A DNA stretch of 64,000 nt from Gluconobacter cerinus (GTDB lineage: Bacteria > Pseudomonadota > Alphaproteobacteria > Acetobacterales > Acetobacteraceae): positions 310,001 to 374,000 of the forward strand of contig NZ_BEWM01000003.1 of assembly GCF_002723935.1 (NCBI RefSeq), written 5' to 3'. This document shows positions 33,832 to 50,157 of the stretch, piece by piece. The position numbers and the translations under genes are program-made. The notes beneath the pieces were generated by a model, which was not told the origin of the DNA, made no database searches, and worked only from the letters and a program-made list of their open reading frames with translations. The stretch's first letter is position 1. Every line of letters begins with the position of its first letter.

Positions 33832-34082
33832 GAAGCGGCTCTTTCAAAACCATATTCGACATTTTTTTCTCCTGACCATCATTTGACCTTAGCGGCCCCA
33901 GACAGCCGTCGCTGGGTCTTTCGCGAGTAAGGTCTAGGGACTCGATTTGCGTCAAACGGAAGTCCGGATCGATTTTGCACCACCAATATGCACGGTTGCG
34001 CACTCACAGGTCCATGAACAGCAGCCCAATTTGAGTGGCACGGGGCAGTCCCGGACAACCAAAGACAAAGTGGAAAAAACTC

Positions 34083-34818
34083 ATGGGAAAGCTTGAAGGT
34101 AAGGTCGCCGTCATCACAGGTGGATCAAGCGGCATGGCGCTGGCGAGCGCACAACTGTTTTGTTGAAGAAGGCGCCTATGTTTTTATCACGGGCCGAAGG
34201 CAGGAGACCCTGGACGAGGCTGTTAGGCAGATCGGCCGAAACGTGACGGGCGTACGTGGAGATGCCGCCACTCTTGATGACCTTGACCGTCTCTTTGAGA
34301 CGGTCAAACGCGAAAAAGGCACGATCGACATCCTTTACGCCAGTGCAGGTACTGGTGAAGCCCTCCCATTGGGCGAGATTACCGAGCAGCACTTCGATAC
34401 GACTTTTAACCTGAATGTGCGTGGCACGCTGTTCACGGTGCAGAAAGCGTTACTGCTCTTCAATGACGGTGGGTCGATCTTTATGACCGGGTCCGTTGCG
34501 GCGCTCAAAGGTTTTTCTGGCTACAGCGTGTACGCGGCGAGCAAGGCCACGCTGCATGCCTTTGCGCTCGGGTGGCTCAATGACTTAAAGGGCTGGAATA
34601 TCCGTGTGAACGTGTTGCATCCGGGGCCAATCGCCACGGCAATGCAGGATCAGGTTCTGACCCCGGAAGCCAAACAGATGTTCGAATCCCTGATTCCGCG
34701 CGGAACGATGGGTCGTCCTGAGGAAATTGCCGCTGCTGCGCTGTTTCTCGCTTCAAAGGATTCAAGCTTCGTGAGCGGTATGGAGTTCTGTGTCGACGGT
34801 GGTTTCTCGGCCATCTGA
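34083..34818 (+). pseudogene. SDR-family oxidoreductase with a frameshift near the start
   Basis: ATG 34083 begins a classic short-chain dehydrogenase: GKLEGKVAVITGGSSGMALA, the NAD(P) motif. At 34158-34161 a run of four T, where three would keep the frame, moves translation to a stop a few codons later. The other frame then continues perfectly as VEEGAYVFITGRRQETLDEA, with YASAGTGEALPLGE, the catalytic Ser in FMTGSVAALKG, YSVYAASKATLHAFA (Tyr and Lys) and the C-terminal SFVSGMEFCVDGGFSAI. The rest is intact, so either a recent homopolymer mutation or a sequencing error. An internal start at 34093 gives only a truncated Rossmann fold. Confidence 0.8.
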
Positions 34819-34901
34819 GCTACGAACCGGAGGGTGGAGCGTGTTCGCTACTGAACATTTTCCAGTCTCCAAGATTATCGTCGCGAATAAAAATTGGACA
34901 C

Positions 34902-35507
34902 ATGATAATGAGCTACGCCATCATCGGGTTTGGCAGGATTGGCCAAGCCCTTGCCCATGCTTTCGCCCGTAAAAACATCACCGTGGCTGTCGCAAGTCGT
35001 CAGTCGCCTGAAGTACTGGCCCCCCTCGCCCAAGCAATTGGTTCTACGGTCGTCGCCTCCTCGCTACAGAATGCGCTGCAAGCCGAAACTATTATTCTCG
35101 CAATTCCGTTTGAGCAGCATGGTGAAGTGGCGAAGAGCCTTCCAAATTGGGAGGGTAAAACGGTCATCGACGCGATGAACTCGTTGGCACCTCTTGGCGA
35201 GATGGACGGCCTCCTGTCATCCGTTTACGCCATGAAGGCCTTTGCAGGTGCAAGGTTTGTAAAAGATTTCAACCATCTGATTGCTGCCACCCTGGCGACT
35301 GATCCGTGCGTCGAGGGCAGCCATCGGGTTGTCTTTTTGTCTAGCGACGAGGAAGATGCGATCGCGCCTGTCGCGACTTTGGCCAAGTATCTCGGGTTTG
35401 CTCCCATTAATCTGGGGAAGCTTAACGAAGGTGGCGCGTTGGTCCATGCACGTGGGCGCATCTGGGGGCCGCTCATTTTCCAGGATGTGTTCAAGAAAAA
35501 GCAGTAA
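34902..35507 (+). CDS. NADPH-dependent F420 reductase-like protein
   Basis: About 200 residues starting at ATG 34902 or 34908. The N-terminal Rossmann motif SYAIIGFGRIGQALAHAFARK, then TVAVASRQSPEVL, TIILAIPFEQHGEVAKSL and KTVIDAMNS place it in the F420-dependent NADP reductase / NAD-binding 2-domain family. The C-terminal half includes AFAGARFVKDFNHLIAATLA, as in family members that reduce small substrates with NADPH. The F420 requirement is not expected in this organism. It follows the SDR gene on the same strand and likely shared its promoter. Confidence 0.8.
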   Translation: MIMSYAIIGFGRIGQALAHAFARKNITVAVASRQSPEVLAPLAQAIGSTVVASSLQNALQAETIILAIPFEQHGEVAKSLPNWEGKTVIDAMNSLAPLGEMDGLLSSVYAMKAFAGARFVKDFNHLIAATLATDPCVEGSHRVVFLSSDEEDAIAPVATLAKYLGFAPINLGKLNEGGALVHARGRIWGPLIFQDVFKKKQ

Positions 35508-35598
35508 CTGAGGCCCGGTGGGTAAGATACGCTCGACCCGCCGCCTCTATCACAATGATAATAAAGGCGGCTTCTAAAGTGCGCAAAAGTACACGCAT

Positions 35599-36390
35599 TT
35601 ATTTATTTCTGTTCTGAAGGTGCAGAGCGAACCCTGTGACGCCCGGCTCTTCAAGATTAGGCAGAAGTTGCATCGTGGGGATCTGATAGTCGCCGCCGTT
35701 CTGCTGCCGATAGGCGATAGGAGGCGTCTCGGTCAGAGCACTCATCCGCATTCGGAGGTCTCTTTCCAAGAGAGCAAATTTCGCATCGTCAGTGCGATCG
35801 GCACGATAGGCCACGAACGGCGGTAGCACTGTAAAGCCCGGGTAGAACAGAATGCCGTGGTGGATCGGGAATAATAAATCGTTGATCGGACCGTTGATTC
35901 CACGTGCAGAGTAATGCTCCGGCCAGCCGCCGGTGGTGACGATGAGCATGGCGCGCTTTCCGGCCATGACGCCTTCGCCATAACGGTCCCCCCAGCGACT
36001 GTCGCTGTGTTCCCCAACCCCATATGCGAAGCCGCAGGCATACACCCGATCCACCCACCCCTTAAGAATTGCGGGCATCGTGAACCACCACAGAGGAAAC
36101 TGAAGTATCACGGTATCAGCCCAGAGCAGCTTCTCCTGTTCTGCTTTGACGTCGTCCGTGAGTGTACGGGCTGTGAACTCCTTTGATGACTCTGCCGCAA
36201 CTTTCAGGCGGTCCGTGGTTTTGAGCCCCGGAAAATCGTCACGGTCGACGGTTGCTTTCCAGTTCATGGCATAGAGGTCCGAGACCTGAACCTGGTGGCC
36301 TTGGGCATGCAGTGCGCTGACAGCGACATCCAGCAGGGCACCGTTCAGCGACTGCCTCTCAGGATGGGCGAACACAATCAAAACATTCAT
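35599..36390 (-). CDS. NAD(P)H:quinone oxidoreductase, flavodoxin-like fold
   Basis: A 263-residue flavoprotein of the NQO1/MdaB/KefF superfamily. It has the FMN/FAD phosphate-binding start VLIVFAHPERQSLNGALL, the quinone-site segment LQFPLWWFTMPAILKGWVDRVYACGFAYG and LIVTTGGWPEHYSARGING. It performs two-electron reduction of quinones with NAD(P)H, protecting from redox cycling. It is transcribed divergently from a LysR gene about 100 bp away, the standard layout for a regulator and its target. Confidence 0.88.
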   Translation of the reverse strand: MNVLIVFAHPERQSLNGALLDVAVSALHAQGHQVQVSDLYAMNWKATVDRDDFPGLKTTDRLKVAAESSKEFTARTLTDDVKAEQEKLLWADTVILQFPLWWFTMPAILKGWVDRVYACGFAYGVGEHSDSRWGDRYGEGVMAGKRAMLIVTTGGWPEHYSARGINGPINDLLFPIHHGILFYPGFTVLPPFVAYRADRTDDAKFALLERDLRMRMSALTETPPIAYRQQNGGDYQIPTMQLLPNLEEPGVTGFALHLQNRNK

Positions 36391-36491
36391 GAGTGTTTTC
36401 TCGCTCGATAGAGAATTGAAACGCCCACTCAGAATAGGAGACCGGATATTGTTCCTCTATAGATATGGTATGAATAGGACTATGCCATTTT

Positions 36492-37409
36492 ATGGAACAA
36501 TCTGACATCACACTCGATCGAATGCGGACCTTCGTACGGATTGCGGAACGGGGAAACCTGACAGCTGTTGCGCGAGAGTTCGGTCATGGCCAGTCAACCA
36601 TCACACGGCATCTCCATGAACTGGAACAGGCGCTTGGTGTGTCCCTTTTTACCCGGACGACGCGACGTGTGGCGCTGACCGATGAAGGTCTGCGCTACTA
36701 TGAGCATTGCCTGAAAATTTTATGTCTCGTGGAGCAGGCCACTCAGGAGATGCGGGAAACGCGCCAGGCAACAGCTGGCACAATCCGGATATCATGCACG
36801 GCAGCTTTGGGAGTCTTTCATATCAGCCAACTGATCTTCGCTTTTCAGGACAAGCATCCGGGTATCCGTGTTGAATTCAACTTGAACGACGAACGGATCG
36901 ATCTCGTACAAGAAGGCGTCGATATTGCTCTCCGGCTCGGTCCTCTGACGGATAGCGCGATGAAACTGCGCGCCCTCGGGGAAAGCCATCGTGTATTGGT
37001 CGCCTCACCTGCGTGGTTGGCGGATCATGGCAGGCCTCAAGTGCCAGAGGATCTTGTCGGTCTGGAAGGAATTCGGCTTTCACGGGTGCAAGGCTCTGAC
37101 AGGCTTGTTCTTCATGGCCCTGACGGCAAACGCTCAACCTTGCCATTTAGAGGGCGTTTGACTGTCGATCACGGGCTTGCAGCACGAGAGGCATTTCTGG
37201 CCGGCCGCGGATTTGGTCCTGCACATCGTTGGCTGGTGGAAGATTGTCTCGCTGACGGGCGACTTGAGCGCGTCCTGCCAGACTACGAACTGACGTCTTC
37301 TCCGCTTAGCATGTTGATCTCTCCAGAACGGGCAAGCCTGAACCGGGTCAGACTCTGCGTGGATTTTCTAGCCGAAAGGATCGCGAAAATTCCAGGGATC
37401 GTTCGATGA
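36492..37409 (+). CDS. LysR-family transcriptional regulator
   Basis: A 305-residue regulator. The N-terminal winged helix-turn-helix is DRMRTFVRIAERGNLTAVAREFGHGQSTITRHLHELEQALGVSLF. A linker helix and a two-lobed effector domain follow (AGTIRISCTAALGVFHISQLI; VDIALRLGPLTDSAMKLRALGESHRVLVASP), typical of the group that controls reductases and SDR genes. It is divergent from the quinone reductase gene, so it probably controls it and itself. The shared 101-bp region is AT-rich with partial symmetry near 36455-36475. The frame is intact, in contrast with the broken LysR gene 3 kb away. Confidence 0.88.
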   Translation: MEQSDITLDRMRTFVRIAERGNLTAVAREFGHGQSTITRHLHELEQALGVSLFTRTTRRVALTDEGLRYYEHCLKILCLVEQATQEMRETRQATAGTIRISCTAALGVFHISQLIFAFQDKHPGIRVEFNLNDERIDLVQEGVDIALRLGPLTDSAMKLRALGESHRVLVASPAWLADHGRPQVPEDLVGLEGIRLSRVQGSDRLVLHGPDGKRSTLPFRGRLTVDHGLAAREAFLAGRGFGPAHRWLVEDCLADGRLERVLPDYELTSSPLSMLISPERASLNRVRLCVDFLAERIAKIPGIVR

Positions 37410-37666
37410 TCTGTACGATGAAAAAATCATGGCCCGCTTGCGGAGCGCCAGAATAATAAAAGATTTTCGTAAAGGAAGGCGGCTTAGCTTTCAGCTAAAC
37501 CGTGACACGTCCAAAGCGTGCCTGATGCTTTCTATGACCGAGATGTGACTGTCGCCTATACTTGTCCACATTGCTGATCAGAAAGACCGTCTGGCAAGGA
37601 TAGGGGCCGGACAGATATTGGATTTATATTCTCCAAGTCGGAAATACCCCTGTAGTAGTTAATACA
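37410..37666. other. Intergenic stretch at the island boundary
   Basis: No convincing gene. A small inverted repeat (GGCTTAGCT, TTC, AGCTAAACC) lies near 37480-37501. This stretch marks the change from the redox cluster to an AT-richer block and may hold a boundary of inserted DNA, but no direct repeat pair was found by eye. Confidence 0.3.
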
Positions 37667-38353
37667 TTAATCACGTGTATTTTTTCTATTTCTCTTCAAA
37701 GTAACTACCATTCTATCTTGCGTTGTCTTTATAGATAATAGAGAAAATTGTGTCAGACGAGTTAACATCGAATTGGATGGTAAAATATATACAGGTATAT
37801 GCTCTAGAATAGCACTTATGGCCGTTTCTCCTGTACCCATCAAGATCTTCTCAAGAGTGGCACGATAGCCGCTGATTAATATATCAGCTTTCTCTTCAAC
37901 GTTAAGAGCCTTAATTGCCCCGTGCAAAGCCGATGCCCAAGTATTTTGCGTAGGTGCTTTTTTTTCTGAAGAATTCAAAGTAATTTTACCGATGATAATT
38001 TTTTCAATTGCAAACCCAGAAAGGTAAAATTTAGCATCACGATATAATAAAGATGCTGATAGCTGGAAGTCGGTTTCCGCTGTGAATATATTTTTATCTG
38101 CGCTTACTGCAGTCGAGATATGTACGCGGTTGTTTTCCATCAATGAAATTAAAACCTCAGATATTTGGAGATCGAAACCTCCCACCTCGGTTGCAATTGG
38201 CAATGCTGCATTGACAGATTTTTGGATTGCAAAAGCAGGAATTGAAATAGAAAACTGCCGTTGATAGATCCATTTCCAAATGAGGATTGCAATGCCTAAT
38301 GTGCTAGCAATTACAATAATCAAAAACATCAACATGTTATTAAAATTTAGCAC
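37667..38353 (-). CDS. Membrane-anchored protein, DUF1439-like pattern
   Basis: A 228-residue protein with one N-terminal membrane anchor (MLMFLIIVIASTLGIAILIWKWIY). The extracytoplasmic domain resembles the DUF1439/YceB layout: SISIPAFAIQKSVNAALP, a long beta-rich middle (AKFYLSGFAIEKIIIGKI), a helix with ALHGAIKALNVEEKADILISGY, and HIPVYILPSN near the end. DUF1439 proteins are envelope proteins of unknown role, and the match is by pattern only. It is AT-rich and on the same strand as the dynamin operon but separated from it by 356 bp, so membership is uncertain. Confidence 0.55.
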   Translation of the reverse strand: MLNFNNMLMFLIIVIASTLGIAILIWKWIYQRQFSISIPAFAIQKSVNAALPIATEVGGFDLQISEVLISLMENNRVHISTAVSADKNIFTAETDFQLSASLLYRDAKFYLSGFAIEKIIIGKITLNSSEKKAPTQNTWASALHGAIKALNVEEKADILISGYRATLEKILMGTGETAISAILEHIPVYILPSNSMLTRLTQFSLLSIKTTQDRMVVTLKRNRKNTRD

Positions 38354-38709
38354 TTAAAGAGTCCATTTTTGGTTGTAACCGCCATTGGTTACGGCGAATG
38401 TTTGACCCAGCGTTCCCAAGACCGCAACTCCTGAAGATTTGCTGCCAACATTAGGTTTTGCGCGAATTCTCGTCACTCGTGCATGCCAGAATCATGGTCA
38501 TACTACTACATTTTAAGGTTGCTAAAGTTGGTTTTGAAGCAATATCCTATATCCCGCATTGAACTCATGTTCTCAGTCCGATCCGTAATGGTAATAATTG
38601 AGAAATACAGCGATTATAACGAAAATATTATGTTAATCATTGGCAACTTAACCGCCAATGATTAACTTTTTCGGCAGAACCAATCCACCCGCTAGAAATC
38701 GGCGCTCGA
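38354..38709. other. Gap of 356 bp without a supported gene
   Basis: AT-rich. A 60-residue forward frame at 38483 has no ribosome binding site or family features. A promoter for the reverse-strand gene at 37667-38353 could lie here; none stands out. Confidence 0.3.
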
Positions 38710-39285
38710 CTAGCCCTCTAAGAAGCCAAAGTGCGTGGGATTAAGGACCAGTGGGCAGTTATAGAAGCCAGAAAAAACGAGCTTCTTCTCTACCGCTGCA
38801 TTCTCTACGCAGGAACACATATCTAACCTGTTAGTCGGAATTTTGTATTCGGGAAGAGAACTCGTGAACGTCACAATTACGTCTTTGCCGTCCTCTTCAG
38901 GACATTCCGAAAGGGGCAGAACACCCATCTGGTTAGTGTTGTCGTTCCATTTCGCCTCAGATCCAGCCCATCGCATGGAAGCATCCGAGAAAAGCTTCTC
39001 CGCCTTGTCTGGAGACTGTCCTGTTTCGCGCAATAGCTGCGCCTCGACGACGGCAGCAAAGCGGACCTGTGTTTCGGCAACGCTAGACGAAGTGCCTGTT
39101 TCTGACGGATTGGAATGCGGATAATTAGTTTCTGCATTATATCTGTAAATTTTAACTAAAATAGTACCGACGATCGCTACTAATGCACCCGCCACGGCCA
39201 AGCATAGAGTCTCACCGCCTCCGGAATTATCCATTGTTTTCATCCTATTTGTTTCTTTTGAGAAATACTGCGAATCAAACGACAT
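38710..39285 (-). CDS. Small membrane-anchored protein overlapping the dynamin gene
   Basis: A 191-residue protein with one membrane segment at about 27-45 (LCLAVAGALVAIVGTILVKIY) and an acidic soluble domain. That domain contains several cysteines (SECPEEDGKD, DMCSCVENAAVEK, FYNCPLVL), which may form disulfides if exported or bind metal if not. No family is recognised. Its start lies 11 bp inside the end of the dynamin gene, so it is translationally coupled and likely part of the same functional unit. Confidence 0.6.
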   Translation of the reverse strand: MSFDSQYFSKETNRMKTMDNSGGGETLCLAVAGALVAIVGTILVKIYRYNAETNYPHSNPSETGTSSSVAETQVRFAAVVEAQLLRETGQSPDKAEKLFSDASMRWAGSEAKWNDNTNQMGVLPLSECPEEDGKDVIVTFTSSLPEYKIPTNRLDMCSCVENAAVEKKLVFSGFYNCPLVLNPTHFGFLEG

Positions 39286-41737
39286 CAGCGCCTCCTAGCG
39301 TTTCTGCCTGTTTCCACTCAGGTAAATATACTGAAGCATTCAAAAGCTTTATAAGGACACTCTTATGCTGTTTCAGAGTTTGAAGCTCGAGTTCTTTCTT
39401 CTGGTCAACTGTATCAATACTCTGGTCTATAGCCCTTTTATAGCCATCAATGCCTTTTTCGATCTTGTTTGTTACATATTTTGAAAAAACATCGACAAGA
39501 GTATAAATATATTTCTTAAAAGTTTCCACGAGAGGTATAATTTCCGTGCTTCTATGAAACCCAGCGAACAGGTCACCTAATCCGGCGACTGAAATGCCTC
39601 TTATCTCGTATTCTTCATTCACACATCTCTCTACTTCATGAACATAAAGATAAAGAGTCCAGATTGATCTTTCGTGAGAAATTTCTTTTTTTTCACGTAT
39701 TTCGGTGCGATGCCAATTTTCGATTTTTGGGATAAGTTTAATACCTGTCCCTTTGAATGAAGGGAATGTTATTTCACCGTCGAAAATGGTTTTTAGGCCC
39801 GGAAAGGCTTGTAATTCCTGCTCAAGGGCTTCACCGCCTTTCTTCTCGATTCCATTGATAAGCAGAGAGGCGCATTCCTTAAAGACGATCCCGATGCGAT
39901 CCCCGGATTGATTTGCAGCAACGGGAATAATGAAATTGATGATTATGGATAATTGCTTTCCAAATTCGTTCAAAGCAGATTTGACCGCAGTTCCATCTGA
40001 GCCTTCTGAGAAACGGCCTCCACTCTGCCAGACCCTTCCGTAAGGGGAAGCCTGCAGCTTTTCCAAGGCTTCTGTAAACTCAGCAAGAGTCGGAATTCCT
40101 ATCATGAGAGGTGAAGGAACGGGAGTTTCTCTCCTCATAACGATTTTAGCATAATCCGCGAGATCATTGAGAGGACGTTTAAAGACGTCATCAGAAAGAT
40201 TTTTGATCGGCGCCAAAAGACCCGGCTTGCCCACACTGCGTCCTATGTAATCAAGCGCCTCACGAATATCCAGAAATGTACTCATGGCTGATATTTCTAA
40301 TTCGGGTTTGTGACTGATATTGAGCTTTTCAAGAAGCCTTATGGCGTCTTCGGCTTCTCGCGTCAGTAAATCCTCGATTTCCGCCAGACGCTTTTTTGCA
40401 GTTGCCGCTTCTTCCTCTGTCCGCGTCATATGTGCTTCGAGTGTTTGGTCAAGTGCGATCAGGAGTTCATTGGCGGCCTTTGATACTGCATCCATTGGTC
40501 CTGCAAGGGCGATTTCCGGTAGATTGGCGGCAATATGCTCTCCCAGACGTCTTTCGAAATCACTGGCATGAGAGTAACGCAAGGTGTCGGCAATGAGGTG
40601 CCGGCGCAAATCGCCCGTTAACTCTTCAAAGTCACGTGGATAAGTTTTCCAGTAACCCTTTGGGAAAATGGTCTTGAAATTCGCTTCAATTTTTTCCAGA
40701 CGGTCCTGCTGCTTTTCCGGAGTGGATTGAAAAAAACCGGCCTCGACAGCCCAAAGCGCAGGAAGCGATGAAATGGTGGCAGGCTCTATACCGTCGATTA
40801 TTACTTTTTCTTCGGGTAGCTCATTTATCAGACCGCCGCGAAGCTGCTGTGTAACGTAGCTCCTAAATTTATTGAGACTTGTATCTGGGTTGCTGTCATT
40901 GCGACTGAAGGCATCGATCCGGTTGAGTAGAAACAGCATCCTTCCTAGAACAGAGGAGGTTTTCCGCCATGATGTGACTTGGTTTATGACCTGATTGAGC
41001 AGTTCCTTTTGCTTTCTGTCGTCAGTTTCCTCTGCATTGTAAGCCACAAGGCAGAGCGCCTGGGTAATGTTCTTACGAATGATCGGGCCATTTCGCTCAT
41101 CGTTCATCGCTTTCAGCCCCGGCAGATCCAAGATCGTGATGCGAGTGCCTTCAGGTAGGCCGAAGCGTACCTTTTCCCCGGCGAGACGGATAGGCCAGTC
41201 AATCTCGAAATGGACTGCTTCGATAGAAGGATTTTCTTTCTCCGCAGCCCGGAATTGTTCCATGGTTTCTTCAAGGCGAGCGCGCAATTCCTCTGCGCTT
41301 AGGTCGTCCCATTCACCAGTGTCCCAAGTAGCGCCGCGCGTGGATGCAATTTTCAACGTGTGACGTTGATCGTGATGCCGTACCGTTACAAGCCCCGCGC
41401 TCATTTCCTGTACGGCAGATGGCAGGAGACTGTCACCAATCAAGAAATTTGCCAAAGTGCTCTTACCCGAGCTTGTTGTGCCGGTCGTAGCCAGAATGAG
41501 TTCAGGAGATTTCACATGCTCCAGAAGCGTCTGAACCGCATTTCCCAGAGCCTCGCGCTTTCTCGTCAGACTCTCGCGCCTCGCACTGTCCAGCCTGTCA
41601 GAGAGGGCTTTCTCGATGTCATCGGCGACGGAAGTGATCTCTATGGTGCGCTGCTGCCAGTAAGCAGCACAATCTCTGAAAAGCCCCTTGAGATCGAGCG
41701 TTGGGTGGGCAGTTTCATTCATGGTCTGGATTTCCAA
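39275..41737 (-). CDS. Dynamin-family GTPase
   Basis: An 820-residue large GTPase. G1 is ATTGTTSSGKSTLANFLIG (residues 83-101), G2 probably Thr118 in SAGLVTVR, G3 ILDLPGLKA (Asp204) and G4 LLNRIDAF (272-277). A long mostly helical region with coiled-coil parts follows (TRTEEEAATAKKRLAEIEDL), as in bacterial dynamin-like proteins. These remodel or tether membranes, and some (LeoA, others in defence islands) respond to phage or membrane damage. An ATG 15 bp further in is an alternative start. The upstream HNH-motif gene ends 23 bp before it and a small membrane protein overlaps its end. Confidence 0.85.
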   Translation of the reverse strand: MEIQTMNETAHPTLDLKGLFRDCAAYWQQRTIEITSVADDIEKALSDRLDSARRESLTRKREALGNAVQTLLEHVKSPELILATTGTTSSGKSTLANFLIGDSLLPSAVQEMSAGLVTVRHHDQRHTLKIASTRGATWDTGEWDDLSAEELRARLEETMEQFRAAEKENPSIEAVHFEIDWPIRLAGEKVRFGLPEGTRITILDLPGLKAMNDERNGPIIRKNITQALCLVAYNAEETDDRKQKELLNQVINQVTSWRKTSSVLGRMLFLLNRIDAFSRNDSNPDTSLNKFRSYVTQQLRGGLINELPEEKVIIDGIEPATISSLPALWAVEAGFFQSTPEKQQDRLEKIEANFKTIFPKGYWKTYPRDFEELTGDLRRHLIADTLRYSHASDFERRLGEHIAANLPEIALAGPMDAVSKAANELLIALDQTLEAHMTRTEEEAATAKKRLAEIEDLLTREAEDAIRLLEKLNISHKPELEISAMSTFLDIREALDYIGRSVGKPGLLAPIKNLSDDVFKRPLNDLADYAKIVMRRETPVPSPLMIGIPTLAEFTEALEKLQASPYGRVWQSGGRFSEGSDGTAVKSALNEFGKQLSIIINFIIPVAANQSGDRIGIVFKECASLLINGIEKKGGEALEQELQAFPGLKTIFDGEITFPSFKGTGIKLIPKIENWHRTEIREKKEISHERSIWTLYLYVHEVERCVNEEYEIRGISVAGLGDLFAGFHRSTEIIPLVETFKKYIYTLVDVFSKYVTNKIEKGIDGYKRAIDQSIDTVDQKKELELQTLKQHKSVLIKLLNASVYLPEWKQAETLGGADVV

Positions 41738-41760
41738 GTTGTGTTGAAAGAATGTGTCGG

Positions 41761-44388
41761 TCAGGAAAACGCTTGGGCAAGAGCGAGACGGTTGTTCTCG
41801 ATCAAGGCAGGCGCTTCGCGCATGAGTTCAAGAGCGGAGGCACCAAGAGTGACTTCTGCGGGGATGCCCAGACGGTGACGGAGTTGCGTCATCGGAATTT
41901 CATTCACGTTCGTTCCCCTCGGCAATCCCATTAGCTTCTGCCAGCCGTGTCTGTCGTCGAATGTCCTGACCGGCAAGACAGATAGAGGCTCTTCCGCCTT
42001 GGCGTACTCGATCAGATCCCTTGCGCGCTGGAGACCGTCGTTCCAGCCGATCAGCGTAAAAGACAGGGTGGCGGGGACGAGGTTGTCGTCCGTATCGATC
42101 TCGAAAGTCCTCTGGGAGGAAGGCATCTTGATGAGCGTGCGGCGGAGCAGAATATACTGGCCAGTCAGCCACGAGTTTTCCTGAGCCAGCTCCCAGAGGG
42201 TAGCGCACCCGGTCAAAGCATGAAGTTCTCGAAGTGCCAGTTCCGCGAAAACGCGCGCGCGCTGGAAACACATCTCAAGCCCGTCGCCCAGTGCGTTCCG
42301 GGCGTCGCGCCATGTGCTGAGTGCAAAGGTCATTCCAGTCAGGAGTGGCAGGCGAGCCGGAGAACCGGGACGTTGATCGTTGAAGCGCGTCTGGAATTTA
42401 CCGATAAGTGAACTTGCCAGTTCCTCAATTTTTTCCAGATCACGCTTCAGTGGAAACTCACCTCGCTCCAAGATGGCGGCGCAGTCGCGATAGTTTGCCA
42501 ACAGCTCATTCAGATTTTCCTGAAGCTGCCGAATTGCACTGAGTTCGACGCCTTCTAGTTTGGCGAGATGGATGGTGTCATGCATTTCTGCGAAACCAGA
42601 ACGTAATTGGTTCCTGATTTCAGCCAGCATGGTCATCTGACGTTCCTGGCCGTCGATGACGCAATGTAAAAGCGCGGTATTTTCCCGAACCAGACGCTCG
42701 ACTGACGCGAAGCCTGTTCGCATAGTCGAGTTGAGGCTCTCAATCCTGTTTTTTATCTGTTCCTGTCCTTGTTCCACGCGGCTCAAAGTAGTTTCGATGC
42801 GATTAAGCCTACGGTTGAAATAAAGCGCCACACCGAGGGGAGGACACGCAACGAAAGCAGCAAGATCGACGGCAGGCGAGTTCGCAATGTCAGTTAGGGT
42901 GTCAATGCTGCTCTTCAGGTTCTGCCAGAAAATTCCGGTGATATGGGCGATCTTCTGATAGGTAGCATCCGTGAAGTCGGCGATTTTGTGCGCGATTTCG
43001 ACTACTTTTAGTACGAGTGGCGAGTTGTCGATTGCATAAGCGAGTGTTACGCTGATCATCCCGCCAACAGCTGCACCTGCGAATTCCGACAGAACCTCAC
43101 GCAGAAAACCCGGCAACACGGAAGCGTATGTCATGATCAGCTTGTCGATCGCCTCGGAGATGATCGGCTGAATTACCGCACCGACGGCAATGGACAGAAG
43201 GCGCATTACAGCAGCGAGTTTTTCTTCTTGGCCGAGGTTGTCAGGATTATAGATAAGGATGCGGAGAGAAGTGACGATCGCGCTCCAGAAACTCCTCAGC
43301 ATCTTCATGGCTTTTTTGGCTGTGCCGGTGAAGATGTTGATGATCGTGGTCACGATCTCAGAGAGCACGCCAGCGGTAAAGCCGCTCTTCATTTCACTCC
43401 AGATGTGACTCAATCTCCCTTTTATGCGCTCCCATGCGTTGCGGAGCACGGTGGCCACATGTTCGAGAATGGGTTTCAGATCAAGCTTTTCCTTCCAGGT
43501 CGGTGTTTGCTGCCATCGCTGGATAAGTGATGGGAATTCTTCCTGCACAGCGACTGAAAGTTCGAGCAAAACCACGCCTAGTCCCTGCCTGGCACCCATC
43601 TTAAAACCGGCAGCTAAAGCATGCTTGGATGTAGCGCCAATAAAGTCCTTACTCGTATAGTAAGCGACGTTGTGTTGCCGTGACATCGCCCTCTCTGCGT
43701 TGTGCGTCGCTTCTTTCAGTTTTGTCTCATCAACAACTAGTTTGGCTTCGAGCGATTTAAGTTTCTTTTCTGCGCCATCAGGAGCGGAGCCGTCCACAAT
43801 TGACTTTCGCAGGCTTGCGGCTTCGGCAAGATTTGATTCCCGCTGTTTTTGTAGTCTTATAAGAAATACTTCAGCAGAGTCGGCTTGTTTAGAGCGGTTT
43901 ATTGAGCGATCTGTCGGTTGAAGATTGCTACTTTGGTTGGCGAGATCCACTCCATTCAGAGAAGACAAGGCTCTCCGTGGATCGTCATGAATTGTTTTAG
44001 CTGCAACCACATGGTCACGGTCATATTTGTCGCCAGGTTTTATAGTCTTGCCTGTGTAAGCATCCCTTAAATTGCCAGCATCGCGTTCTTTATTCCACTC
44101 TTTGCCTTTGGCAATATACGCGGAATCAGAGTGATATTGCGCGCTTTCGTATTCTCCGCGTCTGGCATATGCATCGGCATGTTTCGTTCTTTTGAACGTC
44201 GGATTTTCACCATTTTTCGCGCTCTTGGCAACGTTGTGGATTGTGTCCACATGGCCGTTCGCTTCATCATTGCTAAATAGCAGGGCGTCCAGACCGAAGC
44301 TAGTAATGACGCTCGAAAACAGCACCTCTCTGTAACGCCCAGAGAGTTCTTGGAAAACAGACGGACTTTGATCTGGAACAGCCGACAT
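41761..44388 (-). CDS. Large HNH-motif protein with hydrophobic core and coiled coil, unknown
   Basis: From ATG 44388 the protein has 875 residues. Residues 108-168 carry an HNH nuclease-like block: DAYTGKTIKPGDKYDRDHVV (Asp125, His126) and NLQPTDRSINRSK (Asn155, Asn164, Lys167), without zinc cysteines. Next come a charged coiled coil (about 180-240), an amphipathic and hydrophobic region (about 330-490, such as SIAVGAVIQPIISEAIDKLI and FAGAAVGGMISVTLAYAI), another coiled coil (RLNRIETTLSRVEQGQEQIK) and a helical C-terminal domain. I know no named family for the whole. It is 23 bp upstream of the dynamin gene and divergent from a WYL regulator, so it may be a membrane-linked nuclease effector. 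A start at 44535 is in frame but would overlap the promoter region. Confidence 0.65.
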   Translation of the reverse strand: MSAVPDQSPSVFQELSGRYREVLFSSVITSFGLDALLFSNDEANGHVDTIHNVAKSAKNGENPTFKRTKHADAYARRGEYESAQYHSDSAYIAKGKEWNKERDAGNLRDAYTGKTIKPGDKYDRDHVVAAKTIHDDPRRALSSLNGVDLANQSSNLQPTDRSINRSKQADSAEVFLIRLQKQRESNLAEAASLRKSIVDGSAPDGAEKKLKSLEAKLVVDETKLKEATHNAERAMSRQHNVAYYTSKDFIGATSKHALAAGFKMGARQGLGVVLLELSVAVQEEFPSLIQRWQQTPTWKEKLDLKPILEHVATVLRNAWERIKGRLSHIWSEMKSGFTAGVLSEIVTTIINIFTGTAKKAMKMLRSFWSAIVTSLRILIYNPDNLGQEEKLAAVMRLLSIAVGAVIQPIISEAIDKLIMTYASVLPGFLREVLSEFAGAAVGGMISVTLAYAIDNSPLVLKVVEIAHKIADFTDATYQKIAHITGIFWQNLKSSIDTLTDIANSPAVDLAAFVACPPLGVALYFNRRLNRIETTLSRVEQGQEQIKNRIESLNSTMRTGFASVERLVRENTALLHCVIDGQERQMTMLAEIRNQLRSGFAEMHDTIHLAKLEGVELSAIRQLQENLNELLANYRDCAAILERGEFPLKRDLEKIEELASSLIGKFQTRFNDQRPGSPARLPLLTGMTFALSTWRDARNALGDGLEMCFQRARVFAELALRELHALTGCATLWELAQENSWLTGQYILLRRTLIKMPSSQRTFEIDTDDNLVPATLSFTLIGWNDGLQRARDLIEYAKAEEPLSVLPVRTFDDRHGWQKLMGLPRGTNVNEIPMTQLRHRLGIPAEVTLGASALELMREAPALIENNRLALAQAFS

Positions 44389-44411
44389 ACTTTCACACGC
44401 CCTTTCTACAA

Positions 44412-44430
44412 CATGTAAACGTGATACATG
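44412..44430. promoter_or_regulatory. Inverted repeat, possible WYL-regulator operator
   Basis: CATGTA, 7 nt, TACATG, lying 24 bp before the HNH-motif gene and 125 bp before the WYL gene. Repressors of this regulator class bind inverted repeats in the promoters they share with defence operons. Three TGTCA repeats lie nearer the WYL start (44530-44560). Function inferred from place only. Confidence 0.4.
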
Positions 44431-44554
44431 CTGTGCTAATGGTAACCCTTTGATGCAAAAGCGTAGCATATGGATACACAAAGAGAACCCTTGCTTTCGC
44501 CCTTTGAGAGACCTTATATCTTGATAGGGTGTCAAAATCTGTCATGAGAGCTGT

Positions 44555-45547
44555 ATGTCATTCGCAAAGGCGCAGGATATCCTCCAACTGGCTATGATGG
44601 CCACCAAGCAGGGGGGCGTTGCTCTCGAAGAGATCGCGGAAACGTTTGGTTGCTCCCATAGGACCGCTCAACGCATGACTTCGGCCCTTGAGGCTATTTT
44701 TCCTCAGGTTGTATCCATCCAAGGACAGGATCGCCGTATGCGATGGCTGATGGCGGTACGGACTATTGCACCGTTACTTACGCCCTCGTCAGACGAACTT
44801 ATAGCGCTATCAGAAGCTGTGACACTGCTTGATCGTGCTGGAATGAAACACGAGGCTGCACGCGTTCGAAATCTTGAGTGCAAAATCAACGCTCTTGTCC
44901 CGCCAGTTCAGCGGACGCGTCTGGATGTTGATAAAGAGGCGGTGCTTGAGATGCTCGGATATGCTACTCGTCCGGGTCCTCGTCCAGCGGCAGCAGACGA
45001 TGTAATCAAAGCGATTTATGAGGCACTTAAGGGGCCAAATCTGCTTCGTATTCTTTATCAAAAACATCGGGAAGATGTGCCGCATGAACGAATTGTGGCT
45101 CCCTATGGCTTACTTCTAGGAGTGCGCCGTTATCTTGTCGCTCGAGATGTAAAAAAAGGAATGGATGCACAGATACGACACTTTCGCGTGGAAGAACTCC
45201 ATGAAGCCAAAGTGCTTGATCATGCATTCGAAATCGATCCTGATTTCGATTTGAAAAAACATGCGGAACGTGGATTTGGTTCTTTCATAAATGATGCTGA
45301 GTTCGGAGAGGTTGTCTGGTGTTTTCGCCCCGAGGCAGCAGAACACGCACGGCGCTACGTCTTTCATCCGAACCAGACAACCGAGACAACTGAAGACGGT
45401 TCTTTGATTGTGAAATTTAAGGCTTCAGGCCATCTTGAAATGGCGTGGCATCTTTATTCTTGGGGGGAGTCTGTCGAGGTTCTCGCTCCGGAAACGCTGC
45501 GTCAAATGGTTCTTGGTTATCAGAGGGTGTTTCGAGCTTTGCCGTGA
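44555..45547 (+). CDS. WYL-domain transcriptional regulator
   Basis: A 330-residue regulator. The N-terminal helix-turn-helix is ALEEIAETFGCSHRTAQRMTSALEAIFP. A WYL ligand-binding domain at about 150-225 has LRILYQKHREDVPHERIVAPYGLLLGVRRYLVARD, with the basic and aromatic residues of the class. A WCX domain ends the protein (EVVWCFRPEAAEHARRYVFHP; EMAWHLYSWGESVEVLAP). Such proteins (for example BrxR, CapW) sense nucleic acid or nucleotide ligands and repress anti-phage operons. It is divergent from the HNH-dynamin operon with a 166-bp shared region, supporting control of that operon. Confidence 0.88.
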   Translation: MSFAKAQDILQLAMMATKQGGVALEEIAETFGCSHRTAQRMTSALEAIFPQVVSIQGQDRRMRWLMAVRTIAPLLTPSSDELIALSEAVTLLDRAGMKHEAARVRNLECKINALVPPVQRTRLDVDKEAVLEMLGYATRPGPRPAAADDVIKAIYEALKGPNLLRILYQKHREDVPHERIVAPYGLLLGVRRYLVARDVKKGMDAQIRHFRVEELHEAKVLDHAFEIDPDFDLKKHAERGFGSFINDAEFGEVVWCFRPEAAEHARRYVFHPNQTTETTEDGSLIVKFKASGHLEMAWHLYSWGESVEVLAPETLRQMVLGYQRVFRALP

Positions 45548-45716
45548 GGCCAACCGATATAAGGTTTGACCTGGACGGATAGGAGCATCATTATTGGGAT
45601 TAATGGCGTCTCGCTGGTTTTCTACAAGGTTTTCCGAATTCCGCCAGGCGGAAGCATGTCGGCATGTTGTATATCCGGTGTGTAGGCTGAAGCTGGATTT
45701 TTACCAAGAAAGTAGT

Positions 45717-45899
45717 TTACTCTGTCAGTTTCGAAGTTAATTCATAAATCTCATTATCGATTTTCCGGACAGCAGTAATCACATAGATAACGATCTGTTC
45801 GCCGATGAACTGATAAACAAGGCGCTACTCATCTTTTGGAAGTATTGATCTGGTAAAGTTCTGATAAACCGCGATGAAGCAAAAGATGGCTGATACCGA
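45717..45899 (-). pseudogene. Remnant of a RelE/ParE-type toxin gene
   Basis: On the reverse strand the frame reads RLVYQFIGEQIVIYVITAVR, the C-terminal half of a RelE/ParE toxin, ending at a stop at 45717. A TAG at 45827-45825 replaces the residue before RLVY, usually Tyr or Trp, and no start or antitoxin gene is intact upstream. The rest of the 545-bp gap (45548-46093) shows nothing I can support. Relics of toxin-antitoxin modules are common in accessory islands. Confidence 0.45.
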
Positions 45900-46093
45900 T
45901 GTCTGCTTGCGAGAAACAAGATCGGCCTTCGGAAACGGCAAAAAGTAGGCGAAAGCACCCGGTCCGCTTACGCCTTCATGCTGGCCGTTCGATCGAATTT
46001 CGTGCCTTTCCGAAGCCAGACGTGATTAAGGCCCCGCACCCAACGATGGGCTCGTGCCAGAACGATTCAAAATACTTGATTCAAGGAATATTA

Positions 46094-47320
46094 CTAATTT
46101 GATGGAGGAGCAGAAAGCACCTTGAGACTGGCGTCTCCGAATCTCAGGAAAACGCTTCTGATAGTGGTTTCTTCCTTGTTCTGAACCATGTTCGAAATGG
46201 TATCAATGAGCTGGTTCCCAGCCTGTGAAAGAAGCTCCTGAATCTGCCCAGTTTCTGGCCCGCTCGCCCGGAACAAATAGGAGAAAAATGCTAAAGGGAA
46301 AAAGAAAAGTGTGAAGATGGACGTATTACCGTTTGATGCTTCAGCTTTCTCTCGATGCTCTCGAAGATGGGTTGTGACGAGCTTGGCAACCTGCTTTACA
46401 TCATTCCCGTCATTTGCAACGCCGAATATATAACAGATCCTGATATACATAGCCGAAATAATGGACGGAACAATATCTGCTTCGTCCGCTTTGTTTTGCA
46501 GAATTATTGTACGTAGTGCTGTAGCATTATTTGCGCTGAATTTGGCGACAAAACTACGGGCTTCTTTTTCCCTGAGTTCTTTTGCTGTTTTGTTCAGGCC
46601 TGAGATAACATTCGTAAAAGCCTGACGCTGGGCTTCTGGGATAAAACGATAAGACATCGAGATGAGGTCATCAAGGCCCTTGACTTTATACCTATGGACA
46701 ATTGGATTGCCGTCATCACCTTCGGCCTCTTCGTCTTCTTCTTCGTAGGCCAGCCCTCTGGTCATTACGATGCAAGCGACATAAGGACCAAGGATTTTTT
46801 CGACCTGCTCCAAAAAACTTTTGTCCTTGAAAAGCCGAACCTTTGTCAGGACCACAATGACTTTTAGCCCAAGGTCAGTCAGAGCTTTTGCCAATCGTAT
46901 TTCAGCATCTTCAATACGGGCAGAATCATTGCTGATACAAAGCCATGCCACATGGACATAGTCGTCCGGGTCTGCACCGCGACGACGTTTCACTTCGTCG
47001 ATAATTCCGCCGAGGATCGTTGCGTAATCCGCGAGCTCCAAACCTTTTGTATCGAGGATACGGATAGGGTTGGGGGGATTCTCGATGAGTTCAATGCCTT
47101 GGGTAACAGGTTGTCCAATTCCCGTCTTGGCAAGATGATCACCAAAAACAGCATTAATGAGGGTACTTTTACCCACCCCCGTCTTGCCGCAAATCAGGAT
47201 ATTGGCAGCATTGTTGCCCGCCAGAAATTTCTTGTAGAAATCCCGTGTCTGTAATTGGAAGTCCTCAAGGGTTTTTCGCGCTTCATCGCTCAGACCATTA
47301 TCGACTTTGGCGTCAGTCAT
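46094..47320 (-). CDS. Era-like GTPase, paralogue of the next gene
   Basis: A 408-residue GTPase. G1 is ILICGKTGVGKSTLINAVFG (residues 41-60), a Thr in GQPVTQGIEL (switch I) follows, G3 is RILDTKGLEL (Asp90), and the G4 position reads VVLTKVRLF, with Thr-Lys instead of Asn-Lys-x-Asp. The C-terminal half is helical, with a hydrophobic segment IFTLFFFPLAFFSYLF that may insert in the membrane. Proteins with this DTKG motif occur in many bacteria next to defence or mobile genes; their role is unknown. It lies 21 bp downstream of the paralogue at 47342, in one operon. Confidence 0.75.
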   Translation of the reverse strand: MTDAKVDNGLSDEARKTLEDFQLQTRDFYKKFLAGNNAANILICGKTGVGKSTLINAVFGDHLAKTGIGQPVTQGIELIENPPNPIRILDTKGLELADYATILGGIIDEVKRRRGADPDDYVHVAWLCISNDSARIEDAEIRLAKALTDLGLKVIVVLTKVRLFKDKSFLEQVEKILGPYVACIVMTRGLAYEEEDEEAEGDDGNPIVHRYKVKGLDDLISMSYRFIPEAQRQAFTNVISGLNKTAKELREKEARSFVAKFSANNATALRTIILQNKADEADIVPSIISAMYIRICYIFGVANDGNDVKQVAKLVTTHLREHREKAEASNGNTSIFTLFFFPLAFFSYLFRASGPETGQIQELLSQAGNQLIDTISNMVQNKEETTIRSVFLRFGDASLKVLSAPPSN

Positions 47321-47341
47321 AAATTGATATTCCTAAAACCC

Positions 47342-48517
47342 TTACAGACCGATCTTGTTTTTGAGGGCATTGAGGGCTTCCCCTAGTTCCAGCGGACGGC
47401 CTTCTTCAGTCAAGCTCACTAATACATCTACATAGGTCGAGCCCATAGCAGACGTTAGACGGTTGGCAACTGTGGCCGACAGGGCTCCTCCAATGAACGA
47501 ACCAAGACCCGGAACCATTTTCATAATGCCGGTCACGACTGTTTTGCCCACTAGTGTGGCAGTTGAAGAGCCAATCAGAGTGGTCAGGACAGGAAGAACG
47601 CTGCTTTTTGTGACTGACATCCCAAATATAGTCGAGATCTTCACAATCATCGTGGCTTGGACCGGGAACAGCAGAATTGCGTCTGAGAAAGGAATGGGGG
47701 TCGCTCCAATAGCAGCTGCCGCAGCGCTGGAGACAGTGATAATTTTGGCTGCTTCCTCCTTCTTTTTCTGAAGGCCTTCTTTGGTCTCGATATTCAGGGC
47801 ATTGGCAAATGCCTGCTGCTGGGCTTCCGGGATAACCTCGTAGGACACATGGATAAGTTCGTCGATGCCACGGATATTGTAAGCGCCCACAACATTCTCG
47901 TCATCGTCATAACGAGGCGTTTTAATGGCCCGGGTCTGAACCACAGCGTGTGCGAGCCCTTCAAACTTAGCTTTCACGATGGCAACGAACTCATTGGCCA
48001 TAATAAAGGAATGGGATTTCGTCAGAACGACAATGACCTTCACTCCAAGTTCGTGCAGATCCCAGGCGAGCTGAAACTCAGCATCTTCAATACGCTTTCC
48101 TGGTTCAGCAATGCACAGCCAGGCCACATGAACGTAGTCATCACCATCATGCCCGCGTCGACGACGAACCTCGTTGATGATTCCGTCGCGAATGACTTGA
48201 TAGTCTTCAAGCTCAAGGCCCTTAGTATCTAGAATATTCAGAGGTACACCATCGACACTAACCACGCTGAGCTTCTGCGTGACGGGACGTCCAATACCAG
48301 TTTCGGCCAGTTTGTCCCGGAAAACGGCATTAATGAGAGTGCTTTTTCCGACACCGGTCTTGCCGCAGATAAGGATATTAGCCTTCTTATGCTTTTTGGA
48401 AATTTCATCCCAGAAACCAAGGGCATCATCCTTGAGTTTCAGTATAGAATCTGCAGATGGAATAGACCTTACCACAATGAAGCACTCACCTAAATTCTTT
48501 TCCGTTACAGGATTCAA
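47342..48517 (-). CDS. Era-like GTPase with DUF697-like membrane tail
   Basis: A 391-residue protein, a close relative of the GTPase after it: NILICGKTGVGKSTLINAVF, GRPVTQKLSVV, LNILDTKGLELEDYQVI and VVLTKSHSF follow the same order and spacing. Its C-terminal third differs and resembles DUF697: SSAAAAAIGATPIPFSDAIL, FPVQATMIVKISTIFGM and glycine-rich hydrophobic helices (GLGSFIGGALSATVANRL), suggesting membrane association. The pair probably arose by duplication and now has distinct tails, so they may work as a heteromer. It is the first gene of the two-gene operon. Confidence 0.78.
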   Translation of the reverse strand: MNPVTEKNLGECFIVVRSIPSADSILKLKDDALGFWDEISKKHKKANILICGKTGVGKSTLINAVFRDKLAETGIGRPVTQKLSVVSVDGVPLNILDTKGLELEDYQVIRDGIINEVRRRRGHDGDDYVHVAWLCIAEPGKRIEDAEFQLAWDLHELGVKVIVVLTKSHSFIMANEFVAIVKAKFEGLAHAVVQTRAIKTPRYDDDENVVGAYNIRGIDELIHVSYEVIPEAQQQAFANALNIETKEGLQKKKEEAAKIITVSSAAAAAIGATPIPFSDAILLFPVQATMIVKISTIFGMSVTKSSVLPVLTTLIGSSTATLVGKTVVTGIMKMVPGLGSFIGGALSATVANRLTSAMGSTYVDVLVSLTEEGRPLELGEALNALKNKIGL

Positions 48518-48819
48518 TCAGATAATCGCCTGAATGACAATCTATGTCACAAAAACTTTCGAGAATGTTTGTCGCCAAAATTACGTTTTACTTGGCATGA
48601 AGGTCGATAATATGAATGACGGCTTTCTACTCTCGTTGTCTAACAGCAGACATACCGCTCCCCCCCCCCGCCCAAGAGCGACATTTTTTGAATACCACTT
48701 GCCCTACGACATACGTCCGGAATCTACACGCATTTCCACGCCAACGCCGAGCAAGTATCAGGCTGTCGCGTTTATAAATCGCGCATTACCCACCAAGCTT
48801 TACCTCCATAGCGCAAGCC
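48518..48819. other. Intergenic region with a run of ten C
   Basis: No supported gene. Positions 48660-48669 are ten C in a row, followed by G and three more C. A forward frame across it (120 residues from 48534) has no family features. It likely contains the promoter for the GTPase operon and the end of the gene at 48820. Confidence 0.35.
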
Positions 48820-49158
48820 TCACAGCCGCCCGGCCTCCCGGCATATCCCTAGAAGATGCGCGAGCTTCTGATACAGCACGGTGCCCAGAACAATGACGCC
48901 TTCCAGAATGTGGGCCGCCTCACTCTCGGCCTTCAGACCACCGAGCCGGCTGCAGAGCAGATAATGCTGGAGTTCCACCAGTCGCATCACTTTATGCAAC
49001 CCTGCGTGCAACTCCTCCAGTCGAGGGTCCCGGTGAGAGGACAGGGACAGGCCATGCGCATCGTCGGTTATGAAAACCCCTTGGACAGAACAGTCGGGAT
49101 ATGCGGGCATCCCGCGATGACCTACGAGGCTCCGCGTCACCATTTGATGCAGAAACAT
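48820..49158 (-). CDS. Hypothetical protein divergent from the S24 repressor
   Basis: A 112-residue protein, reverse strand from ATG 49158 (or ATG 49143). Codon use is GC-rich and like that of real genes here. The last 65 residues look helical (RLEELHAGLHKVMRLVELQHYLL; ESEAAHILEGVIVLGTVLYQKLAHLLG). No family is recognised. It is divergent from the repressor with about 70 bp of AT-rich DNA holding a putative operator, so it could be under repressor control as in phage-like immunity regions. The opposite-strand frame over the same bases is less protein-like. Confidence 0.5.
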   Translation of the reverse strand: MFLHQMVTRSLVGHRGMPAYPDCSVQGVFITDDAHGLSLSSHRDPRLEELHAGLHKVMRLVELQHYLLCSRLGGLKAESEAAHILEGVIVLGTVLYQKLAHLLGICREAGRL

Positions 49159-49181
49159 ACGTTTATTCGACTATATATTAA

Positions 49182-49196
49182 AGCGTATTTTCGCCT
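49182..49196. promoter_or_regulatory. Putative repressor operator upstream of the S24 gene
   Basis: AGCGTATTTTCGCCT resembles the palindromes downstream of the gene (AGGCGATTCGTCGCCT) and shares the half-site TCGCCT. It lies between the divergent genes, next to an AT-rich TATATATTA that may be a -10 element. Suggests autoregulation. Confidence 0.4.
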
Positions 49197-49228
49197 AAAT
49201 ACAGACATCTCTGGTTCAGGATGTTTGC

Positions 49229-49915
49229 ATGGCCCGATCACGCCTTCGAAAGCGCCCCCTCATGGATGACCAACTCACCCTCCTCCGCGAGCGCGGCGAG
49301 CGCCTGCGTCAAGCCGCCCAAAGCATCGGCATCACCCACGCCGCCAAGGCCGCAGGCGTCCCCTATACGACCCTGAGGGATTATATGGGCGGTAGTGAGA
49401 TGAAGCTGTCGGCTGTCGCTTCCCTCGCCCGGGTTTGTGGCGTCTCCCTGGACTGGCTTGCTTTCGGCGTTGGGGATGCCCCCATCACAACGGCTCATGT
49501 AGCAGGCTCCTCTGAAGCCCCGACGCGTGGCGGCCACCAGACTGTCATCCCCTGGATCGATGATCGCGATGAGGGTCTGCGCGTCAGCAAAGCCTGGCTT
49601 GAAGCCACCGTCGCACGTGAGACGACCGGATTAAGACTGATCAGCGTGACAGGCGATGCCATGACACCCACCCTGCGGGAGGGCGACCTCGCCATGATTG
49701 ATACGGCCAGCGTCACCGTTCAGGGCGGTTCTGTCTTTGCCTTACGGGTCGAGGGCAACATTCTCATCTGTCGTCTTGAGCGATGTCTGGGCGGCGGGAT
49801 CCGTGCACTCGCAGATCATGATCGCTATCCCCCGCAGGATCTCTCACCAGACGAAGCGCAGGCCCTGACACTTCTGGGGGAAGTGATCTGGTCAGGCGGA
49901 CCGCTGGTCAGTTAG
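49229..49915 (+). CDS. S24/LexA-like phage-type repressor lacking the autocleavage residues
   Basis: A 228-residue CI-like protein. An N-terminal helix-turn-helix (GERLRQAAQSIGITHAAKAAGVPYTTLRDYMGG) and VCGVSLDWLAFG linker precede an S24 peptidase-fold domain (about 135-220). In active repressors the segment is GDSMxPT with a catalytic Ser; here it is SVTGDAMTPTLREGD with Ala144. The catalytic Lys position in ALRVEGNILICRLER is Cys181. It therefore should not self-cleave and would not respond to RecA in the usual way. ATG 49262 is an alternative start. Related palindromes lie on both sides. Members of this kind also occur as host regulators in Proteobacteria. Confidence 0.82.
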   Translation: MARSRLRKRPLMDDQLTLLRERGERLRQAAQSIGITHAAKAAGVPYTTLRDYMGGSEMKLSAVASLARVCGVSLDWLAFGVGDAPITTAHVAGSSEAPTRGGHQTVIPWIDDRDEGLRVSKAWLEATVARETTGLRLISVTGDAMTPTLREGDLAMIDTASVTVQGGSVFALRVEGNILICRLERCLGGGIRALADHDRYPPQDLSPDEAQALTLLGEVIWSGGPLVS

Positions 49916-49944
49916 GCTTGCCCAGGCAGATAGAAACGTCTTAT

Positions 49945-49956
49945 GCGATTAATCGC
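49945..49956. promoter_or_regulatory. Palindrome GCGATTAATCGC, probable operator
   Basis: A perfect 12-bp palindrome 30 bp after the repressor gene and 24 bp upstream of the -35 box of the next promoter. It shares the GCGA/TCGC arms with the second palindrome, so both may be bound by the repressor. Confidence 0.45.
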
Positions 49957-49979
49957 GCCATTCTATATACGAATAATCA

Positions 49980-50007
49980 TTGACTAAGGCGATTCGTCGC
50001 CTATTAT
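49980..50007 (+). promoter_or_regulatory. Sigma-70 promoter with an operator filling its spacer
   Basis: TTGACT (49980-49985), 16 nt, TATTAT (50002-50007), a near-consensus promoter. The spacer together with one flanking base is the palindrome AGGCGATTCGTCGCCT (49987-50002), so a bound repressor would block polymerase. It drives the leader and membrane protein gene downstream. Confidence 0.65.
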
Positions 50008-50050
50008 GGCCTGAGATTCACCGCCCTATCGGGTATCTCAGGAGGCCGCC

Positions 50051-50095
50051 ATGATCGTTATCCTCTCTCTCCCCTGCCCGCTGACCGAGCTGTAA
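50051..50095 (+). CDS. Possible 14-residue leader peptide
   Basis: ATG 50051 follows AGGAGG at ideal distance, and the frame MIVILSLPCPLTEL ends at TAA 50093-50095. It lies between the repressible promoter and the membrane protein gene at 50158, and a GAGAT/ATCTC hairpin (50012-50038) precedes it. It could be a regulatory leader or a tiny membrane peptide. Support is only the strong ribosome binding site and position. Confidence 0.4.
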   Translation: MIVILSLPCPLTEL

Positions 50096-50157
50096 CGCTC
50101 CTCCTGCCCTTTCGCCATTTCACGAGAGCATGCGGAACGTCTGTTTCGGAGAGCGTC

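Follow-up and report, generated by a model that had tools for sequence, protein, structure and literature searches.

A WYL-flanked HNH-dynamin operon in Gluconobacter cerinus: a candidate partner-swapped variant of a putative anti-phage or anti-plasmid nuclease family

Several bacterial systems share parts with the operon described here. As far as the available excerpts of the respective papers go, SNIPE, a GIY-YIG nuclease of the inner membrane, cleaves phage DNA while it is being injected (PMC13190303); DynA of Bacillus subtilis, a dynamin, gathers in clusters at the membrane upon phage infection and delays lysis (PMC8844932); and CBASS is controlled by a WYL factor (PMC9122588). Here we analyse a locus in a 64,000-nucleotide stretch of the Gluconobacter cerinus genome (3.58 Mb; G000:C3:310001-374000), called the window below, whose own positions serve as coordinates. 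A WYL regulator gene on the plus strand stands divergent from a minus-strand run of three genes, for an HNH protein, a dynamin-family GTPase and a small protein with one transmembrane (TM) segment. All of these genes had been named in a first-pass annotation of the sequence, and all were found. From their domains, conserved residues and relatives, we lean somewhat towards the view that the operon is a partner-swapped accessory variant of a candidate anti-phage or anti-plasmid family, in which a membrane-associated HNH nuclease would be gated by the dynamin and its small partner.

The first-pass annotation had called the locus a candidate undescribed defence island. This seems to hold for the pairing with a dynamin, but not wholly for the HNH protein, which PADLOC already lists as candidate PDC-M40B (E = 1.7e-34, residues 69-504 of the 924-residue open reading frame (ORF)). 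The likeness to PDC-M40, itself only a PADLOC candidate, consists in this match; PDC-M40A had no match in the whole genome of the strain and PDC-M40C none at E<=1 among the eight island proteins scanned. Compared with PDC-M40, the window form adds a C-terminal domain and the dynamin. With the operon of WYL, glycine-rich (PDC-M09A-like), HNH and CxxCxxCC proteins on E. coli islands it shares the HNH-membrane core, often the WYL protein, and accessory sites; that operon has glycine-rich and CxxCxxCC proteins and lacks the C-terminal domain, whereas the window has this domain, the dynamin and the one-TM protein. Eleos (LeoA-LeoBC) resembles the locus through a partial LeoA match of the dynamin (PADLOC, 9.4e-15), which covers part of the profile only, in two stretches, and which general dynamin relatedness may explain. 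For LeoBC, sought beside this LeoA-like dynamin, the best match among the eight island proteins (1.1e-5) fell on the P-loop of a GTPase at 47342-48517. We know of no Eleos system with an HNH protein. In its excerpted description, SNIPE combines TM, DUF4041 and GIY-YIG parts in one protein (PMC13190303), whereas the window has an HNH protein with a dynamin partner; neither GIY-YIG nor DUF4041 was among the Pfam hits at E<=1. DynA, likewise a dynamin from a bacterium, contributes to anti-phage protection and has no nuclease partner named in the excerpt (PMC8844932), whereas the window dynamin is paired with the HNH protein. By analogy, the window operon may contain what an HNH-based equivalent of SNIPE would need, controlled by a DynA relative and under a WYL protein. 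In a search that was thin on subscription journals and took in the available parts of PMC11514479 and PMC7824862, we found no publication on PDC-M40, on this operon or on its glycine-rich counterpart.

The HNH protein (41761..44388, minus strand) has 875 residues and, from PADLOC, alignments and AlphaFold2 (AF2) models, comprises an HNH domain, a hydrophobic helical middle and a helical C-terminal domain. We place its start at the ATG at 44388, close to which its relatives also start, and count residues (His126 and so on) from there; the mechanical ORF of 924 residues extends to a TTG at 44535. The HNH motif, recognised in alignments and the fold model, occupies residues 109-167 (43888..44064, minus strand), with D125-H126, N155 and N164. 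H126, N151, N155 and N164 are present in 31 of 31 rows of alignment A2, and D125, H126, N155 and N164 in all 40 aligned relatives, 12 of which match the HNH_4 profile weakly. An AF2 model with a predicted local distance difference test (pLDDT) score of 91 has modest-Z likeness to endonuclease I and to Cas9 HNH domains. A nuclease reading of the protein is supported by these residues and, tentatively, by the predicted fold. Residues about 330-525 (42814..43401, minus strand) form a weakly hydrophobic helical stretch, possibly a membrane-inserting part, with Kyte-Doolittle values of 1.4-1.9 at residues 392-418, 432-453 and 506-524 and low-confidence helices in the model. The first-pass term "HNH-motif membrane protein" is right about the conserved HNH residues; its membrane half depends on these weak stretches.

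Residues about 556-875 (41764..42723, minus strand) make up the C-terminal helical domain, with pLDDT of 80-94 across most of 620-875. Outside one locus of another Acetobacteraceae genome, G232 (L097), we met it in no proteins but the full-length ones of the dynamin-type family. A search from residues 505-875 for this domain with other effectors gave only the HNH family (13 proteins, the query included); because 8 of the 21 full-length proteins escaped it, the search is insensitive and other effectors are possible. Our best reading of the sequences is that an HNH nuclease bearing a hydrophobic helical region forms the constant part of the family and here carries a helical C-terminal adaptor in addition. 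Tail tape-measure models of PHROGs also match the middle of the protein (best 2.1e-5). Eleven PHROGs families match some of the 31 A2 members at E<=0.001, 9 of them tail families and 8 of these tape-measure (best 2.7e-8), and tblastn of residues 290-610 against phages gave tape-measure genes in the best 25 of 25 rows. Of 30 rows spread over 163 records, 26 were also tape-measure genes, but these had E values of 0.08 or worse. With the same residues reversed, 21 of the 22 records that the search returned were tape-measure genes. Because the reversed stretch matches these genes too, the likeness is at least largely one of composition and helix pattern, and we dropped tape-measure homology.

The dynamin (39275..41722, minus strand) has 815 residues from the ATG at 41722, which is preceded by GGAAA and gives a form resembling P0114, or 820 from the TTG at 41737. 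Besides the LeoA match, it is identified by Pfam Dynamin_N (PF00350; 5.5e-12, 46.5 bits against a cut-off of 27) and by alignment A3, in which Lys92 (TTG numbering) is invariant in 35 of 35 rows. The 23-bp spacing to the HNH gene given by the first-pass annotation applies with the TTG start and becomes 38 bp with the ATG; its 11-bp overlap between the dynamin and small-protein genes was correct. The small protein (38710..39285, minus strand) has one strong N-terminal TM segment at residues 26-44 and appears to be the dynamin's partner, as homologues adjoin dynamins in G232 (L097) and at L121, and in G1176 (L120) the two are joined in a single 888-residue frame. Since our small-protein model was trained on window and G232 sequences, the G1176 matches are the independent ones. 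In G232, a C-terminal-domain-like ORF without HNH (L097 7556-8536) is followed by a broken dynamin and then by two small-protein homologues. Dynamin matches number ten in G232 and five in G1176, both Acetobacteraceae, many of them pieces. Because the copies read stand without the full HNH protein, the dynamin and one-TM protein look like a module in its own right, which the HNH family has joined. As a separate observation, both genomes are reduced and show an unexplained dynamin expansion (L097, L098, L118-L124), several copies adjoining small one-TM proteins. Elsewhere, we found no relatives of the dynamin in viral contigs or phages, one distant Nostoc dynamin among plasmids, and the genome of origin alone among 398 genomes of the phylum.

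Scanning genome contigs, we found 109 relatives of the HNH protein and kept the best 80, which represent 79 loci in Bacillota, Pseudomonadota, Bacteroidota, Spirochaetota and others. At these loci the relatives are mostly about 520-580 residues long and lack the C-terminal domain. By neighbour models built partly from the same neighbours, a glycine-rich hydrophobic membrane protein of about 345 residues is present at 78 of the 79 loci, a CxxCxxCC protein at 72, a TerB-like protein at 23 and a WYL protein at most 3.5 kb away at 40, with more than 4 kb of upstream DNA available at 58; one example of the glycine-rich protein matches PADLOC PDC-M09A. Neighbours scanned (91 of 125 picked from 237 near 38 loci, with no random-region control) included 15 WYL proteins, 3 GmrSD restriction enzymes and 2 MzaA. 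HNH relatives lie on 49 plasmid records, in one case beside AlpA and inovirus-type genes, and on 7 Aeromonas phage records, and an Aeromonas jumbo phage carries both glycine-rich and HNH genes. The HNH gene of the glycine-rich form was found in 374 of 5,426 E. coli genomes (more than 80% of the gene in 367); of three E. coli chromosomes read, two have tRNA-Phe and an integrase at the site and one has a type I restriction system beside it. No HNH relative was seen in viral contigs, and among 385 genomes of the class only the genome of origin had one. Annotated records of plasmids and E. coli chromosomes show, whole or in part, the order WYL, "chemotaxis protein", "cobalamin adenosyltransferase", YkgJ. 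The "cobalamin adenosyltransferase" label falls on the HNH protein (E. coli L112-L114; plasmids L108, L109) and looks like a misannotation. Two further loci hold distant HNH relatives, one with a 266-residue protein with a hydrophobic C-terminal end and an AAA ATPase (L099 4645-8245), the other beside a PDC-M40C-like protein (L103 7148-9826).

Full-length relatives of about 875 residues number 20, at 38-82% identity. As a proxy for co-occurrence, we compared contig sizes with those of the 120 listed of 538 dynamin matches: the longest contig equals in size that of a listed dynamin match for 12 of the 20 full-length relatives, down to 38% identity, against 2 of 92 stand-alone relatives. By this proxy, failure of the two proteins to co-occur in other genomes, which the first-pass annotation had said would speak against its proposal, is not what we see. 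In a quick tree of 134 rows, made from the first 500-520 residues or so and rooted at the midpoint, one 25-row group with a Shimodaira-Hasegawa-like approximate likelihood ratio (SH-aLRT) support of 100 brings together every one of the 21 full-length forms and 4 shorter forms that lack the C-terminal domain. Such a single supported group fits one gain of the architecture and later losses. The glycine-rich type is also present within the family, in Acetobacter cerevisiae, whose protein is placed elsewhere in the tree, which suggests separate arrivals of the glycine-rich and dynamin types.

The block is accessory, on a foreign stretch of DNA. By blastn against G015, of the same genus, it lies in a strain-specific island (31574..51510): window positions 26340-31573 (82%) and 51511-52509 (90%) match the flanks, and since only 506 bp separate these in G015, the window carries about 20 kb that this genome lacks. 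Within the genus, the HNH protein occurs in 1 of 26 genomes, namely its own, and so does the dynamin, besides a 97-residue match at 5.4e-4 in G022. A survey of the family gave HNH-protein matches in 8 of 397 genomes, several of them weak and the strongest, G232, in the C-terminal domain alone, and the dynamin in 2 of 397. With an empty site in G015, conservation as core genome in all relatives, the other outcome said to count against the proposal, does not apply. The AT-richer DNA noted before is evident (GC 0.42-0.45 at 37-41 kb, compared with 0.54-0.60 over large parts of the window), as is the phage-like repressor nearby, an ORF at 49229-49915 (plus strand) with a helix-turn-helix and an S24 peptidase, CI-like and matching PHROG 4 at 1.8e-27.

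The WYL/WCX transcriptional regulator (44555..45547, plus strand) matches Pfam WYL with 37.2 bits (3e-9; cut-off 21.8) and WCX, likewise above its cut-off, with 53.1 bits (4.1e-14). The divergent gap between its gene and the HNH gene is 166 bp; a sigma-70-like promoter was sought in it and none was found. The gap holds an imperfect 27-bp palindrome (44408..44434; 10-nt arms, 90% complementary, 7-nt spacer), which we regard as a candidate operator.

From these findings we propose the following mechanism. The WYL protein would keep the operon low via the palindrome. The one-TM protein, whose pairing with the dynamin has support from gene neighbourhoods and a single joined frame, would anchor the dynamin at the inner membrane. 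A membrane disturbance, such as phage or plasmid entry, would bring about GTP-dependent dynamin assembly, and the assembled dynamin would use the C-terminal domain of the HNH protein to hold or release it. The HNH domain, with residues and a modest-Z fold likeness that suggest a nuclease, would then cut DNA beside the membrane. We infer the membrane site, the DNA target and its timing, the trigger, the WYL repression and the defence role.

A widespread nuclease family with its usual partners swapped for a dynamin, probably an anti-virus system, is the reading that we favour because of the HNH residues and HNH-like predicted fold, the dynamin identity, the accessory status, the co-occurrence and the joined dynamin/small-protein frame, and because of the relatives on mobile DNA, the WYL proteins at 40 of 79 loci and the PADLOC candidate listing. 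Several findings weigh against it. Among the dynamin matches listed, 8 of the 20 full-length relatives have no matching contig; a window-type dynamin stands, within the fetched DNA, at 0 of the 79 stand-alone HNH loci; other Acetobacteraceae have scattered dynamins unaccompanied by a full-length HNH protein; no HNH partner was found for an Asaia dynamin; the places read in G232 and G1176 have the C-terminal domain at one and the full HNH protein at none; and the membrane prediction for the HNH protein is weak. Since HNH relatives occur without the dynamin and dynamins without the full-length HNH protein, the two look like modules joined in one lineage. A broader idea, possible though doubtful in our judgement, is a widespread immune family in which a membrane-associated HNH nuclease would cut entering DNA with exchangeable membrane-sensing partners: glycine-rich and CxxCxxCC proteins in most of the bacteria seen, the dynamin and one-TM protein here, and elsewhere, it appears, either an AAA ATPase (L099) or a protein like PDC-M40C (L103).

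Abortive infection, the proposal of the first-pass annotation, in which the HNH domain would degrade host and phage DNA, the dynamin would break the membrane and the cell would die, is a less likely explanation that we take seriously; a nuclease, hydrophobic segments and a WYL regulator would suit a toxic effector, but DynA, an anti-phage dynamin, delays lysis according to the available part of its report (PMC8844932). We do not favour it, and DNA cleavage at the membrane on entry fits the anatomy at least as well. The same nuclease could act on DNA arriving by any membrane entry route, so that the operon would exclude plasmids or conjugation rather than phages. Relatives on plasmids, the one beside AlpA and inovirus-type genes among them, and on jumbo phages would agree with elements competing with other elements, but no neighbour seen points specifically to exclusion, and we consider it improbable. 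Equally improbable, in our estimate, is an envelope-stress or membrane-repair operon in which the dynamin does the work and the HNH protein is a regulator or relic. G232 and G1176 have several copies of the dynamin and one-TM partner with no HNH protein, which would suit such a role, but the HNH residues are fully conserved, the locus is accessory and the HNH protein does without this dynamin at 79 loci. Low GC, long geneless gaps and the phage-like repressor could suggest a decayed island without function; this we regard as very improbable, since the three frames are intact, overlap or are tightly spaced, and have relatives at 66-82% identity.

If the broader idea is right, the dynamin of the window would serve a nuclease as its sensor or scaffold. 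Anti-phage defence is known to involve dynamins and, separately, membrane nucleases; a tie between the two through operon and gene architecture would join membrane surveillance to DNA cutting. In addition, the glycine-rich form is fairly common in E. coli, where it often has the "cobalamin adenosyltransferase" label, which would hide a nuclease; the window variant bears on this unexplained locus.

Other features lie nearby. An ORF at 37667-38353 (minus strand; 228 residues, one N-terminal TM segment, a sub-threshold DUF1439 match) is separated from the operon by 356 bp and was not counted as a member. Just past the WYL gene, in the same island, two adjacent and similar P-loop GTPases (46094-47320 and 47342-48517, minus strand), the second with DUF697, are possibly a second accessory system; like the 27-bp inverted repeat, this pair was absent from the first-pass annotation. 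A possible RelE-like toxin remnant at about 45700-46000 (minus strand) was noted by eye only, with no search made. Window positions 48868-49468 have 69% identity to DNA of G005, of the same genus, and the cumulative GC skew changes from rise to fall at about 47000.
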